A stretch of DNA of 64,000 nucleotides, taken from positions 1-64,000 of the forward strand of contig DUVN01000029.1 in NCBI GenBank assembly GCA_012841015.1, read 5' to 3'. Source of the stretch: Clostridiaceae bacterium (GTDB lineage Bacteria; Bacillota; Clostridia; Saccharofermentanales; DTU023). This document shows, one piece after another, positions 5,849-64,000 of the stretch; position 1 is the stretch's first letter; every line of letters begins with the position of its first letter. Below the pieces are notes generated by a model. It saw only the letters and a program-made list of their open reading frames with translations. It was not told the DNA's origin and ran no database searches. A program made the translations under genes and the position numbers.

Positions 5849-5925
5849 TTCGATTGAAATGGAAAACGGTTGACGGGGCTGTCTCAAAACGGCTCATCCA
5901 AAGTAAGTAGAAAGTGCCCCGCCGA

Positions 5926-5963
5926 CCGTTTTTAGAAGAAGGCTAGCCTTCTTCTAAAAACGG
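5926..5963. repeat. 38-bp perfect palindrome (hairpin/cruciform; possible bidirectional terminator)
   Basis: CCGTTTTTAGAAGAAGGCT|AGCCTTCTTCTAAAAACGG, exact reverse complement of itself. Confidence 0.9.
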
Positions 5964-6040: not shown

Positions 6041-6261
6041 TGGTCAATATTTACGCTTTGAGTAACAGTGTTTTACCTAAAGCGTTATTTTTGACCAGAT
6101 TCGCGCGATTTTCAGTGGTATCTGGTCAAAATTTCCACCTTGGGTAACGGTTTCTTTCCAAAAGTGTATTTTTTGTCCATTTTCGAGCCCTTTCCACTGG
6201 TTAGTGGTCAAAAAATACACCTTGGGTAATGGCTTCTTGCCTAAAACGTCATTTTTGACCA
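6041..6261 (-). repeat. Intergenic repeat array, locus 1: three 57-nt palindromic units with 25-nt linkers (82-nt period)
   Basis: Units at 6041-6097, 6123-6179, 6205-6261, each TGGTCAA...(G)TAA-loop-TT(A)CC...TTGACCA type. Inverted orientation relative to the other two loci, judged from linker sequences. Confidence 0.9.
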
Positions 6262-6507
6262 ACTTAGCAAGCTAATCAATCGTTTCACGTCGGTTGATGC
6301 TAAGATACAAGTGGACTGACGACAATCATTAGGCCTTGAGTGCGAACGTTATTTCGAGACATCGCCGGTTTTTGGGGAGGAGTCCATAAGCCAAAACGAC
6401 TTGATCAAACTCGGAATCCCTGCTTTATACTGGAGAAATATGCGGATATTAATGTGGACTGTGTTTTTACCTAGAAGTTAGACAATTTCTATTTATATCA
6501 TTTCTCA

Positions 6508-28345: not shown

Positions 28346-28554
28346 CTTTCCTCCGTACATCTGTTGGTGCGAGATAATAACCTACTAGAAGGCTATATGA
28401 AGCGTGCTTTCCTCTGTACGTCTGTTGGTGCGGGAAAGACGAGCACCTGTTTATTCGCGAGGTTGATCTTTCCTCCGTAGATCTGTTGTTGCGAGATGAT
28501 AACCTACTAGAAGGATATATGAAGAGTGCTTTCCTCTATACACCTGTTGTTCGT
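28346..28554. repeat. Four 26-nt direct repeats with exact 61-nt period (35-nt spacers)
   Basis: Repeats start at 28346, 28407, 28468, 28529 (CTTTCCTCYGTACRTCTGTTGGTGCG-like, degenerating to the right). Spacers 1 and 3 nearly identical, so the array is also a 122-nt duplication. Confidence 0.9.
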
Positions 28555-28774
28555 GTGAGGGGGAATGCCGATTATGCAGACAAGCAATATGCGAATACCA
28601 TACAAGGTATAGTCATCGCATATCCAACAGTAGTTATATAACCAAAGGGTAGCTACCACAAAACGATTCAGCTTTTCTGAGGTTTGTCGCACAGCTCAGA
28701 GTTCGATTTCTTGTCATCATTTATCAGAAGTCGTGTGCGGTTGAGCCTCAAGCTAAACGCTTAGCTCGCTAAGT

Positions 28775-28995
28775 TGGCCAAAAATCACGGCTTAGGTAAT
28801 AAACTCCTGCTCAAAGTGTAAAAATTGACCAAAAACTCCCTGAAAACACTCGAAAATGGTCAAAAAAGACGTTTTGGGTAAGGACGCATTGCCCAAGGTG
28901 CAAATTTTGTCCACCATCGACTAAGGATCGCTCGAAGATGGTCAAATTTGACGCTCTAGGTAAGAAGTCCGTACTCAAAGTGTAAATTTTGGTCA
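28775..28995 (+). repeat. Intergenic repeat array, locus 2: three 57-nt palindromic units, 82-nt period
   Basis: Units at 28775-28831, 28857-28913, 28939-28995; same TGG(T/C)CAAAAAT...GGTAA-loop-...CAAGGTG...TTGTCCA architecture. Confidence 0.92.
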
Positions 28996-29108: not shown

Positions 29109-29156
29109 ATTAGAAGAGGCTGTCTCACTCTTGCTCTTATTGAGCAGTTTTGAGAC
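29109..29156. terminator. GGCTGTCTCA/TGAGACAGCC stem-loop associated with repeat locus 2
   Basis: aGGCTGTCTCActctTGCTCttattGAGCAgttTTGAGACAGCCcc; outer 10-bp and inner 5-bp stems. Confidence 0.75.
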
Positions 29157-29344
29157 AGCCCCGCGAGGTGTTAGTTTGTGTAGAGTTGTCTTCTAAGGAC
29201 GTATTGCAGGTTCTATTCTTTGTCGTTGCCTAGAGGCAATGCAAGGTTGCTGTCCGATGAAAAACATTGCGCCGTATTGTATACTGGATCTCATTTTATC
29301 TGGAGGTGACTCAACGTTACTCCCTACGGCAAATTCTTGCTACA

Positions 29345-47012: not shown

Positions 47013-48080
47013 TTAGTCGTCGTAATCACTATCATCGAAGTCGCTGTCGTCATTCGTCGGCTTTGTTGTCCTGCGTGTCGTTGGCTTCTTGTAGTCGCTG
47101 TCGTCGAAGTCGCTGTCGTCTTTTGTCGGCTTTGTCGTCCTGCGTGTCGTCGGCTTCTTGTAGTCACTGTCGTCATGATCGCTGTCGTCGAAGTCGCTGT
47201 CGTCTTTCGTCGGCTTTGTCGTTCTACGCGTCGTCGGCTTCTTGTAATCACTGTCGTCATGGTCGCTGTCGTCGAAATCACTGTCGTCTTGCGTCGGTCT
47301 TGCTGGCTTCTTGTAATCACTGTCATCATGATCGTTGCTATCGGCGTAATCGGTATCATCATCATAGTCGCTCTCGTCCTGGTCGCCGCGCTCATACTTC
47401 AGAACTTTTCCGCTTACTGCATCGATCTCGTACTCATATTCAACGCCATTGGCTTTGAACTCTATGTCGTAGTATACGACGTCGTCGTCTTTTTCGAGTT
47501 TAACTTTATCAAAAGTGGCGCTGGAAGCTGATACTTTTGCGTGATTGAGAGCGATCTCTTTGGCTCGTTCAACCGTAATGAATTCTCCAGTCGGTCCCTG
47601 ATAATCTGAGTCATCATAGTCCGTGAAATCGATACCTAGGACCTTAGAATCCAAGTTCATCGCTTCGAGCGTCGTGCGAACTTCTTTGGCTAATAGCTTA
47701 TCGAATGCATCTTCAGGGAAAACGGATCCTTTTACGAATTCAATCGTTATATCGCGTTCGTTCCCGTCATCAGATACGAAAAATCCTGCATCGTGAATTG
47801 CTTTTACAAGCTCTTTGACTGTGGCTCGCACGTCCTCGCCCTTGAAATCTCTGATATTTTCGATCACGACTTTTGCATCGTCATTTTCCGCCTTAATGTC
47901 TGTAACGAGGCCTTCGCTATCATAATGGACAGCTATTTCCGGATTGACACGCAACAGGACGATGCCTGTGCCTTCCTTCAACTCTGCTGCGCTCTGCCCT
48001 TTAGCACAGCCAAGAACGGCAGTGACAAGGAACAAAACGGAGAACATCAGGGTGATCATTTTCATTTTGTGTTTTTTCAT
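47013..48080 (-). CDS. Lipoprotein with RsgI-like/PepSY-like domains and C-terminal Asp/Ser/Lys tandem repeats
   Basis: Lipobox TAVLGCAKG; GIVLLRVNPEIAVHYDSEGLVTDI; FITVERAKEIALNHA..YYDIEFKANGVEYEYEIDAVSGKVL (PepSY); tail repeats DDSDFDDSDHDDSDYKKPTTRRTTKPTK. Confidence 0.85.
   Translation of the reverse strand: MKKHKMKMITLMFSVLFLVTAVLGCAKGQSAAELKEGTGIVLLRVNPEIAVHYDSEGLVTDIKAENDDAKVVIENIRDFKGEDVRATVKELVKAIHDAGFFVSDDGNERDITIEFVKGSVFPEDAFDKLLAKEVRTTLEAMNLDSKVLGIDFTDYDDSDYQGPTGEFITVERAKEIALNHAKVSASSATFDKVKLEKDDDVVYYDIEFKANGVEYEYEIDAVSGKVLKYERGDQDESDYDDDTDYADSNDHDDSDYKKPARPTQDDSDFDDSDHDDSDYKKPTTRRTTKPTKDDSDFDDSDHDDSDYKKPTTRRTTKPTKDDSDFDDSDYKKPTTRRTTKPTNDDSDFDDSDYDD
47020..47320 (-). repeat. In-frame tandem repeats (about 84-nt / 28-aa units, plus shortened copies) encoding DDSDFDDSDHDDSDYKKPTTRRTTKPTK
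   Basis: Two full 28-aa copies plus shortened or variant copies, visible in protein and DNA. Confidence 0.9.
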
Positions 48081-48639
48081 GTTCTTTCTCCTCATATTGT
48101 AATTTTTGAAATGGCAATGGTTTATTGCGCTGAACACTAATAGATTGCGGACGTCATTTCGGAAAAGCGGGGTCGAAGAACAGAGAATTGAGAAATTATT
48201 TCGAAAATGATCTGAATTGTCTCATTAAGGCCTTAAATTCCCCCGAAATGCGTGGCCTCCTTGTTCTCTCGAATCAGATTCTAGCTGTGGAGTGAGTGAT
48301 TTGCTCCCATGCAGGCAGTAACTCGATTATGAGCAAAATCTACTCTAAAGTGAAAACTCGTTTTGAGACAGTTCGATTATTTTTGCGATATCACTCATAA
48401 TAATATTACACCCAAGAAATGGGAGGCTATTCTGTGGATGTCCCACGAGTGATAGAATTAATGTAAGTATGGGTAGTCCGCTCGAGTACGTTGCGGAATA
48501 TCCCATCAAGATGCGTCAGTGCAAAGTGGTAGCCTCTGCCAAAAACTTTTCGCTTCTTGCGATGAAACATAGGTGGATACGGGACCATTGCCGAGAGGAT
48601 CACTAGATCGGCCCGGTGCGTGATTAGGGGAGTCTTTTT

Positions 48640-60979: not shown

Positions 60980-61246
60980 TGCTTAAATTATGTTAGTCGA
61001 TACAAACTAGATTGTCAAGCGCTCACATGATTATTTTTTAACGAAATAAAATAGGATAAGTTAAGCGACTCATATGAAACAAAACAAAAACAATCGTCGG
61101 AAATGATAAGCGGAATAGCCAACAGTGAGAAGTTGTTTTTTGACGTTGCTGCCACCTTTCTGATCTGTATCATGTGGTATGGACATGGAAGTACTGGAGT
61201 TAACTCTTTGATAGAAATGGCGTGGGCGATCGTTAGTATGCTATGT

Positions 61247-61549
61247 TGGTCAAATTTTCCATTTTGAGTAGCAGATCCTTACCCTAGGTGTAAAAAATGA
61301 CCACAATCCTCTATAAAACGCACGAATCTGGTCAAAAATGCCGCTTTGGGCAAGACACTGCTACTCAAGGTGTAAATTTTGTCCGTATTCGGCTTGAAAA
61401 CGCACGAATCTGGTCAAAAATGACGCTTTAGGCAAGCCCACGTTACCCAAGGTGTAATTATTGTCCACAATCAGCTTAAAAACACTGGGGGCTGGTCAAA
61501 AATGACGCTTTCGGTAAAAACTTGCTGTTCAAAGCGAAAAAAATGACCA
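61247..61549 (+). repeat. Intergenic repeat array, locus 3: four 57-nt palindromic units, 82-nt period
   Basis: Units at 61247-61303, 61329-61385, 61411-61467, 61493-61549; linkers CAATCCTCTATAAAACGCACGAATC / TATTCGGCTTGAAAACGCACGAATC / CAATCAGCTTAAAAACACTGGGGGC. Confidence 0.95.
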
Positions 61550-61648
61550 CTATCCATCAGATAGAAAGCGGGTGAAGTCTAAGGAGTTGATTCCAATGCG
61601 TCCTCTGCTAGGTGAAACGTGTGATGATAATTAACAGACAGTAAAAGA

Positions 61649-61696
61649 GGCTGTCTCGTCCTCGCTGCCAATGAGCGGTTTTGAAACAGCCTCTTT
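61649..61696. terminator. GAGGCTGTCTC/GAAACAGCCTC stem-loop associated with repeat locus 3
   Basis: GAGGCTGTCTCgtcctCGCTgccaatgAGCGgtttTGAAACAGCCTCttt, same two-stem plan as at 29109. Confidence 0.75.
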
Positions 61697-61723: not shown

Positions 61724-63367
61724 TTAACTTCTAAGAGCTTTTAGGATCGCCGTCAATGTTTCTTTCGCATCACCGAGCATGAGCGCGATCTTGTCTTCCC
61801 GCCCCTCTTCGTAGAGTGGGTTGTCGACGCCAGCGTAGCCGGGGAGTTTGTCGAAGTTACAGATGATCAAATTCTTTGAGTTTTCGACGTCGAGAATCGG
61901 CATGCCGTAGATCGGTGTACCAACTGCTGTGTTGGCAGCAGGGTTGACGACGTCGTTTGCACCGATGACGATTGTAACGTCGATGTCCTTAAACGCATCG
62001 TTGATATCCTGCATCTCATACAGCTTATCGTAGGGGATATCGACTTCTGCTAGGAGTACATTCATGTGACCGGGCATACGGCCGGCGACAGGATGGATGG
62101 CGAATTTAACGTCTTTGCCTGCCGCTTCGAGCTCCGTCATGAGCTGCTTGACAGTTGACTGTGCCTGCGAAAGGGCCATTCCGTATCCCGGTACGATAAT
62201 GACGCTCTCGGCGTCGCGCAGCCAAGATTTGCAACATTCAACAGGCGTCATCGTGCCGGAGGCTTTCTTCGGTGCAGCAGCTTCTATACCCGATGTGCGG
62301 AAAGACGTTAAGATCGTATTGAGCGTCGCTTTTGCGTCGCCGAGCATGAGCGCGATCTTGTCTTCTCGCCCTTCTTCATAGAGCGGGTTGTCGACACCTG
62401 CATAACCGGGGAGCTTGTCGTAATTACAGATGATCAAATTCTTTGAGTTTTCGACATCGAGAATCGGCATGCCATAAATCGGCGTGCCAACTGCTGTGTT
62501 GGCGGCAGGGTTGACGACATCGTTCGCACCGATGACGATTGTGACGTCGGTGTCCTTAAACGCATCGTTGATGTCCTGCATCTCATATAGCTTATCGTAG
62601 GGGATATCAACTTCTGCGAGGAGTACGTTCATGTGACCGGGCATGCGACCAGCGACGGGGTGAATAGCGAACTTGACGTCTTTGCCTTCTGCCTCAAGCT
62701 CTGTCATGAGCTGTTTGACAATTGACTGTGCCTGTGAAAGGGCCATGCCGTATCCCGGTACAATGATGACATTCTCGGCGTCGCGTAGCCAGCATCCGCA
62801 TGTTTCCTCGGGCGTTGCAACTTCAGAAGCATCTTTCAGTGCGGTAGCATCTTGACCCGATGCGCGGAAGGACGCCAAGATCGTATTGAGTGTGGCTTTT
62901 GCGTCACCGAGCATGAGCGCGATCTTGTCTTCCCGTCCTTCTTCATAGAGCGGGTTATCGACTCCTGCATAACCGGGGAGTTTGTCGAAGTTACAGATGA
63001 TCAGATTCTTTGAGTTTTCGACATCGAGAATCGGCATGCCATAGATCGGTGTGCCAACTGCTGTGTTGGCGGCAGGGTTAACAACGTCGTTTGCACCGAT
63101 GACGATTGTAACGTCGGTGTCCTTAAACGCATCGTTGATATCCTGCATCTCATACAGCTTATCGTAGGGGATATCGACTTCTGCTAGGAGTACATTCATG
63201 TGGCCGGGCATACGACCAGCGACGGGGTGAATAGCGAATTTGACGTCTTTGCCTTCTGCCTCAAGCTCTGTCATCAACTGCTTGACAATTGACTGCGCCT
63301 GTGAAAGGGCCATGCCGTATCCCGGTACGATAATGACGCTCTCGGCGTCGCGCAGCCAACATCCACA
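61724..63367 (-). repeat. 567-bp in-frame tandem repeat within pntB (domain III x3)
   Basis: Unit starts (minus strand) at 63367, 62800 and 62233, each aligned at the C-x-x-W-L-R-D motif; spacing exactly 567 nt = 189 codons; third unit ends at the stop. Confidence 0.95.
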
Positions 63368-64000
63368 TGCCTCCTCAGGTGGCATCGCGGCCATCTCCGG
63401 AAGCTCAGGTTCTTCCTCTTCTACAACGGGCGCTTCCTCCTCTTTCTTCGGTTTAATGCTGACGACTGAGGTTTTTCCGAGGAGGATATCGAAGAGCTTT
63501 CGATTCATCGATCGGCACATAATCTGGGTGAGCAGAAGGCCCGATGCGCCGACGATTCCACCGATCGCGACGAGGAGCGGGTCTCCGATTGCCATACCGG
63601 CGATGGACCCGGCAACACCCGAGAAGGAGTTGAGCAATGAAATCGTGATCGGCATATCGGCACCGCCGACACGGATTGAGAAGATAATGCCGAACACGCC
63701 AGATAAGATGGAACATCCTAGAAGGAGAATAATCTTCGCAATGGCGTTATCCGTGACGTCGCGAATAGCGAGCAAAACGACCGTCACGAGCGAGAGTAGC
63801 AATGAAAGAGCGGTCCAGAGTTGGTGATTTTTCAGGATGATCGGGCGCTGTGGAAGGACTTTATGGAGTTTTCCTGCAGCGACGAGGCTTCCTGTGAACG
63901 TGAGCGAACCGACAAAGATCGCAAGTCCCGCCGTCACCAGCGAGAAGATTGTCTCATCCGGTTTGGCGGCAATGAGTGTCATAATCCCGGAAAGCATAGA
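61724..64000 (-). CDS. pntB: NAD(P) transhydrogenase beta subunit with three tandem domain III copies (5' end off window)
   Basis: dII TM region (FTGSLVAAGKL..GGADMPITISLLNSFSGVAGSIAG) followed by three copies of C(G/K)(C/S)WLRDAE(S/N)VIIVPGYGMALSQAQS...HPVAGRMPGHMNVLLAEVDIPYDKL...VIGANDVVNPAA...YAGVDNPLYEEGREDKIALMLGDAK. Confidence 0.95.
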   Translation of the reverse strand, partial: SMLSGIMTLIAAKPDETIFSLVTAGLAIFVGSLTFTGSLVAAGKLHKVLPQRPIILKNHQLWTALSLLLSLVTVVLLAIRDVTDNAIAKIILLLGCSILSGVFGIIFSIRVGGADMPITISLLNSFSGVAGSIAGMAIGDPLLVAIGGIVGASGLLLTQIMCRSMNRKLFDILLGKTSVVSIKPKKEEEAPVVEEEEPELPEMAAMPPEEACGCWLRDAESVIIVPGYGMALSQAQSIVKQLMTELEAEGKDVKFAIHPVAGRMPGHMNVLLAEVDIPYDKLYEMQDINDAFKDTDVTIVIGANDVVNPAANTAVGTPIYGMPILDVENSKNLIICNFDKLPGYAGVDNPLYEEGREDKIALMLGDAKATLNTILASFRASGQDATALKDASEVATPEETCGCWLRDAENVIIVPGYGMALSQAQSIVKQLMTELEAEGKDVKFAIHPVAGRMPGHMNVLLAEVDIPYDKLYEMQDINDAFKDTDVTIVIGANDVVNPAANTAVGTPIYGMPILDVENSKNLIICNYDKLPGYAGVDNPLYEEGREDKIALMLGDAKATLNTILTSFRTSGIEAAAPKKASGTMTPVECCKSWLRDAESVIIVPGYGMALSQAQSTVKQLMTELEAAGKDVKFAIHPVAGRMPGHMNVLLAEVDIPYDKLYEMQDINDAFKDIDVTIVIGANDVVNPAANTAVGTPIYGMPILDVENSKNLIICNFDKLPGYAGVDNPLYEEGREDKIALMLGDAKETLTAILKALRS

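Follow-up and report, generated by a model that had tools for sequence, protein, structure and literature searches.

The stretch of DNA analysed here, 64,000 nucleotides long and called the window below, carries three arrays of 57-nt palindromic units, each accompanied by a leader palindrome that was recognised by comparing array flanks (the left flanks of all arrays in the case of array 3):

61247-61303, 61329-61385, 61411-61467, and 61493-61549, plus strand: array 3, four 57-nt units with 25-nt linkers between them, spanning 61247-61549
61230-61246, plus strand: leader palindrome of array 3, a degenerate form of CTTAGCATGCTAAG
6041-6261, minus strand by linker polarity: array 1, three units starting at 6041, 6123, and 6205
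6262-6279, minus strand: leader palindrome of array 1, TTAGCTTGCTAAGT on the minus strand
28775-28995, plus strand: array 2, three units starting at 28775, 28857, and 28939
28758-28774, plus strand: leader palindrome of array 2, GCTTAGCTCGCTAAGT

An earlier note on this DNA had described four units of 25 + 7 + 25 nt with 82-nt spacing and 25-nt linkers at array 3, and all of those coordinates were re-found, as were the same 57-nt build and spacing at arrays 1 and 2. The 82-nt period was detected by TRF at two of the three loci. Linker polarity places array 1 in the opposite orientation to arrays 2 and 3, which corrects the earlier note, and the extra palindrome of CTTAGCATGCTAAG type that heads most arrays was missing from it. 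A promoter and terminator scan of array 3 gave no signal clearly exceeding chance.

Several further features lie close to these arrays. A second dispersed, terminator-like hairpin, GAGGCTGTCTC...GAGACAGCCTC, occurs near many arrays, including window positions ~5876-5960, 29111-29162, and 61645-61696 and the regions L055, L061, L063, and L078. A minus-strand frame for NAD(P) transhydrogenase beta (PNTB) at 61724-63997 comprises three tandem copies at a step of 567 bp that are 88-92% identical; Pfam recognises three PNTB stretches, and the triplication is either real or an assembly fault. A period-61 tandem repeat of 3.3 copies at 28346-28549 is flanked by an ADP-ribosylglycohydrolase-like gene and array 2.

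The window's own assembly (G000) consists of 1.79 Mb in 30 contigs and is ~90% complete. A covariance model built from the ten window units and searched against the whole assembly returned at least 150 scored matches, and an arm profile scanned over 262 kb, comprising the window loci and thirty further regions of the genome, located 260 arms, distributed over 33 array segments; shuffled sequence yielded none. Exact 57-nt units number 118 in the genome, mostly two to six per array. Segments at the starts of contigs C7 and C20 can be joined at a repeated GGACCCGC into one intact 57-nt unit with nearly identical flanking linkers, and they are very probably parts of a single array, interrupted where an IS256-type element entered the 7-nt loop; another array, at the end of C7, has a linker in common with the array at the end of C16. 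The count is therefore put at ~32 arrays, and because several contig ends fall in or beside arrays, the assembly was probably broken by them and ~32 is a minimum. The earlier description of a dispersed element is therefore borne out by ~32 intergenic arrays, found with both the covariance model and the arm profile. Intervals between arrays range from ~7 to 102 kb and are irregular by eye, and regular genomic spacing was rejected. The IS256-type element at the C20 start (L069) and C7 start (L056), apparently inserted in a unit loop, is bounded by the 8-bp direct repeat GGACCCGC, and IS256-like ends adjoin several other arrays in this genome.

Each unit has fixed end blocks, TGGNCAAA...TTTGNCCA across the 118 units, enclosing a badly paired middle, an inner stem, and the 7-nt loop. 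The consensus left arm is TGGTCAAAAATGACGYTTTAGGYAA and the right arm, read as its reverse complement, is TGGWCAAAATTTACACYTTGRGTAR, with near-invariant positions TGG-CAA, C14, T18-T19, G22, and A24 and a free position 4, which is unpaired in about half of the units while the adjoining end-block positions are invariant. The systematic difference between arms reported earlier was confirmed. At position 10, 113 of 118 left arms have A and 106 of 118 right arms have T; at position 12, G occurs in 84 left arms and T in 115 right arms. The linker is also polar, with a consensus near CAATCGACTGAAAATCGCTCGAATC, and different arrays share near-identical linkers; in the linker frame, the leader palindrome directly precedes most arrays. 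Genome-wide, the plus-to-minus arm distance equals 32 for 118 of 125 arm pairs (those spanning exactly 57 nt) and the minus-to-plus distance equals 50 for 94 of 100 linkers (those of exactly 25 nt), with linker identity averaging 72% within arrays and 57% between them. Constant lengths despite this divergence point to either selection on length or exchange among arrays, although exchange would not be enough alone because linker identity between arrays is low. The selection on geometry proposed in the earlier note fits this pattern, in which unit and linker lengths hold while linker sequence diverges.

By simple frame calling, no array overlaps a convincing gene. Among the 25 arrays with both neighbours, 10 lie between convergent, 11 between codirectional, and 4 between divergent genes; codirectional arrays run along transcription in five cases and against it in six, and array-facing gene ends are 3′ ends in 36 cases versus 5′ ends in 22 (p = 0.087). 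No flanking genes are common to the arrays except insertion sequence ends, and type III toxin-antitoxin RNA repeats were set aside given the variety of the neighbours, which are annotated in part. Two junctions permit comparison with close relatives. Between the genes that we take to be ortB and oraS from their sequence and general knowledge, with a PLP-enzyme Pfam match as the tested support, the gap is ~80 nt with a small hairpin in G001 and G002 and ~485 nt with an array in the window's genome. The rplQ-ecfA junction is array-free in close relatives, which carry a terminator-like hairpin there; in the window's genome, an array follows rplQ, upstream of a terminator-like hairpin.

The arrays missing from close relatives at both junctions make the suggestion of a mobile element plausible, but neither a mobilising enzyme nor a target duplication was found. 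Inspection by eye of the flanks of 33 array segments revealed no target-site duplication, and the two junctions compared gave no clean empty site. The window's genome has one IS200-type Y1 transposase gene (PF01797), at a contig end with no arms nearby; among other array bearers, a RAYT-like gene lies ~0.3 kb from a unit in G054, the copy in G057 is broken, and G032 and G020 have none, so the Y1 transposase was rejected as a partner on account of this inconsistent occurrence. The IS256-type transposase was likewise rejected: it lies beside arrays here, but a search of the other main genomes with arrays did not turn it up, and the element is therefore regarded as a visitor.

Relatives were compared using one genome per species. 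Searches of thirteen genomes of the same genus found no array of the window's kind and weak matches in G002 and G006. The sister species G002 has a single relic unit with a leader palindrome, and its inner stem is different and partly complementary. Elsewhere in the order, the pattern matched 26 times in G032, 65 times in G054, and 269 times in G057, with no matches for a reversed control; unit and contig matches make it very probable that G057 is MAG87_KBP (JASGUW01) and that G054 is AS06rmzACSIP_306 (JAAYZH01). Units in all three are 56-57 nt long and have the same TGGNCAAA...TTTGNCCA ends with other cores and linkers. Most linkers measure 4-5 or 15 nt in G057, most of those in G032 measure 4 nt, units of G054 start 71-73 nt apart, and a GC-rich palindrome stands ahead of many family A arrays in G057. 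Among 392 genomes sampled evenly across the class, the three-block pattern occurred in G000 and G032 only. Two genomes of the window's family, G020 and G048, have arrays of period 91-92. Downstream of rplQ, G011 (L268) has another kind of hairpin array, with a period of 51, at the rplQ-ecfA junction, the site of an 82-nt array in the window's genome, and a contig end of G003 (L267) enters an array resembling it. The element shown here is a lineage-specific, high-copy, intergenic array with constant geometry; its sister families share its ends and have inner stems that are complementary. A THF riboswitch lies ~190 nt past one of the G057 arrays (L197, 6203-6303).

Evidence for hairpin pairing differs between families. 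In the window's family, arms show no covariation in the ten window units or in 116 distinct units, and 79.7% of positions pair compared with 79.8% when partners are shuffled; because the two arms do not covary, an RNA helix has no support in this family. The earlier suggestion of an RNA made of serial hairpins fails here on that count and on the lack of strand preference relative to transcription. Pairing is supported outside the window's family, in G057 and across families. In family A of G057 (92 distinct units), inner stem positions 19-25 pair in nearly every unit; positions 21-22 show three pair types and position 23 shows two, all common standard pairs with both sides changed. Pairing there occupies 84.1% of cells compared with 77.8% after shuffling, and cells changed on both sides number 128 compared with 54.5, figures to be read knowing that three stem types may represent two or three events and that shuffles ignore relatedness. 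Family B of G057 has no such covariation excess. Across families, the inner arms of 12 representative units, hand-picked and in some cases related to each other, pair with their own partners at 0.70 and with others at 0.46 (p = 1.5e-4).

Array periods across lineages are 51, 60-61, 70-72, 82, and 91-92, with neighbouring values about one DNA helix turn apart. The best-fit step is 10.25-10.30 bp, with p = 0.0018 for five values, 0.0002 for eight, and below 5e-5 for eleven; the test is post hoc, as the idea came from the same data, the values were assembled by hand, and the families are partly non-independent. Periods of 73 and 89-90, off these steps, also exist, and quantisation near 10.3 bp is therefore a strong lead rather than proof. 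The phased protein-binding array raised in the earlier note gains support from these periods and remains a rival reading: a dimeric or filament-forming chromosomal protein would bind inverted TGGNCAAA blocks on duplex DNA at a constant helical angle, serving chromosome folding or local insulation, and the palindrome would be merely two inverted binding sites. Such an arrangement would account for the lengths held in 94% of units and linkers, the quantised periods, the arms that do not covary in the window's family, and the frequently unpaired position 4 between invariant neighbours. It leaves the compensatory inner stems of G057 and of the cross-family comparison unexplained, and most sister species have no arrays, unlike what is expected of an essential chromosome-organising site; with the post hoc quantisation and its exceptions also to be considered, this reading is judged unlikely.

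A distinctly less probable alternative is that the arrays are read from upstream genes and that serial RNA hairpins block exonucleases or lower expression of the next gene. Consistent with this are the array between ortB and oraS, where relatives carry one small hairpin, the array after rplQ, the preference for gene 3′ ends, and G-T wobble pairs kept on the linker-oriented strand at positions 15, 16, 17, and 21, a weak bias given that positions 20, 23, and 25 lean oppositely. Against it, codirectional arrays have no strand bias (5 vs 6), the window's family has neither covariation nor an Rfam match, and exact linker length is not obviously required if linkers are single-stranded. A classical MITE, an internal-deletion derivative of an insertion sequence whose 25-nt arms are terminal inverted repeats and which was later tandemly duplicated, would suit a dispersed, species-specific burst with inverted ends but is very improbable, as the loci examined contain no insertion sequence with these ends, no target duplication was seen by eye at array ends, the IS256-type elements beside arrays differ from them in their ends and do not accompany arrays in other genomes, and neither strict 25-nt linkers nor a leader palindrome would be expected.

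Named repeat classes offer partial likenesses. The earlier note's statement that no named family matches holds against Rfam, plasmid, and phage searches, none of which matched the arrays; the exact arm pattern matched no viral or genome contig in a set that possibly excluded records of the window's genome. Isolated matches to the search pattern occur in viral contigs. Structured RNA families are characterised by helix-supporting compensatory changes and Rfam models, neither of which was found for this family, and CRISPR arrays have unrelated spacers of constant length, whereas linkers here are related and shared between arrays. MITEs are similarly dispersed and non-coding with inverted ends, but these units are tandem at a fixed period, with no target duplication seen and no parent element in the examined loci. 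Integron attC sites are imperfect palindromes with an outer stem, an unpaired middle, an inner stem, and a variable loop. They resemble the present palindrome in approximate size and layout, but here no R-box consensus was seen and no gene cassettes lie between sites.

The closest likeness is to REP and BIME sequences of E. coli and Pseudomonas, associated with TnpA-REP/RAYT, which are also high-copy, intergenic, imperfect palindromes in inverted pairs with regular linkers and tandem copies; they also share conserved stem mismatches, alternating inverted repeats, and a preference for gene 3′ ends (PMC8266576, PMC3733652, PMC2817692). Arm positions 10 and 12, which are consistently mismatched, recall the mismatched bulge in the REP hairpin that TnpA-REP needs (PMC8266576), and the excess of 3′ gene ends parallels that of REPs (PMC3733652). 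Units here are 57 nt rather than 20-50 nt, the terminal unpaired GTAG/CGTC tag is absent (arm positions 13-15 do read ACG, but inside the palindrome), and no RAYT gene flanked by the repeat was found in the ~90% complete assembly; because of these differences in size, tag, and partner, the element is not filed as a REP. The leader palindrome and near-exact 82-nt period also set it apart. Descriptions of REP-like repeats come chiefly from Proteobacteria, with a few other phyla represented; only one of two groups has a partner transposase, and Firmicutes and Clostridia are not mentioned (PMC3733652). Neisseria dRS3 (CGTC-1 in PMC3733652) also forms large clusters of short palindromes, but no CGTC..CCA-tagged short element occurs here and linkers are fixed in length and related in sequence. 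Repeats with TGGGCAAA...TTTGCCCA ends in cyanobacterial Moorena (L105, L156, and L194) have tandem 54-55-nt units, a matching end block, and 20-27-nt linkers, a resemblance that surfaced because the search pattern specified these ends; they differ in having periods of 74-82 that vary within one genome and a weak inner palindrome. An array family in Bacillota that is spaced near-exactly, has a leader palindrome, and lacks a REP partner points to other machinery as the source of such arrays.

The favoured explanation, judged about evenly balanced between right and wrong, is a non-autonomous, REP/BIME-like palindrome array that folds as a single strand when spreading and whose spacing is tied to DNA geometry. 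One strand, exposed in replication or transcription, would fold into a hairpin, and a putative enzyme would recognise it by the end blocks and mismatched region, much as TnpA-REP recognises mismatched REP hairpins. Arrays would grow by unequal exchange of whole periods, and linkers are indeed closer in sequence inside one array (72%) than across arrays (57%), the pattern that tandem exchange predicts. Once placed, adjacent units would hold a constant rotational position on the double helix, with the period staying near whole turns, probably through a protein that binds the end blocks cooperatively; by analogy with REPs, the arrays may also affect nearby transcripts at their 3′ ends. Counted in favour of the REP/BIME-like explanation are the ~32 intergenic arrays, the junctions that are array-free in close relatives, the relic in G002, the shared ends with differing cores, the covarying inner stem of G057 family A, the own-partner pairing of inner arms across families, the fixed arm mismatches, the excess of 3′ gene ends, and the quantised periods; counted against it are the lack of covariation in its own family, the missing GTAG/CGTC tag, the inconsistent Y1 partner, the failure to define a target-site duplication or precise empty site for any array, and the lack of observed movement among genomes that represent one strain per species. 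A broader proposal, more doubtful, is that constant 56-57-nt units with end blocks, changing inner stems, whole-turn spacing, and one conserved putative protein across a Bacillota order define an undescribed class of element; if true, this class would join hairpin-dependent spreading to duplex-dependent phasing. Related families with differing inner stems and stepped spacing constitute a natural experiment for separating the single-strand and duplex readings.

Two other features of the window were recorded, both on the minus strand. Positions 2020-2057 contain a SECIS_4 selenocysteine element (Rfam, 56.6 bits), and a low-complexity reading frame at 47013-48137 is built of nested tandem repeats of 15-153 bp.
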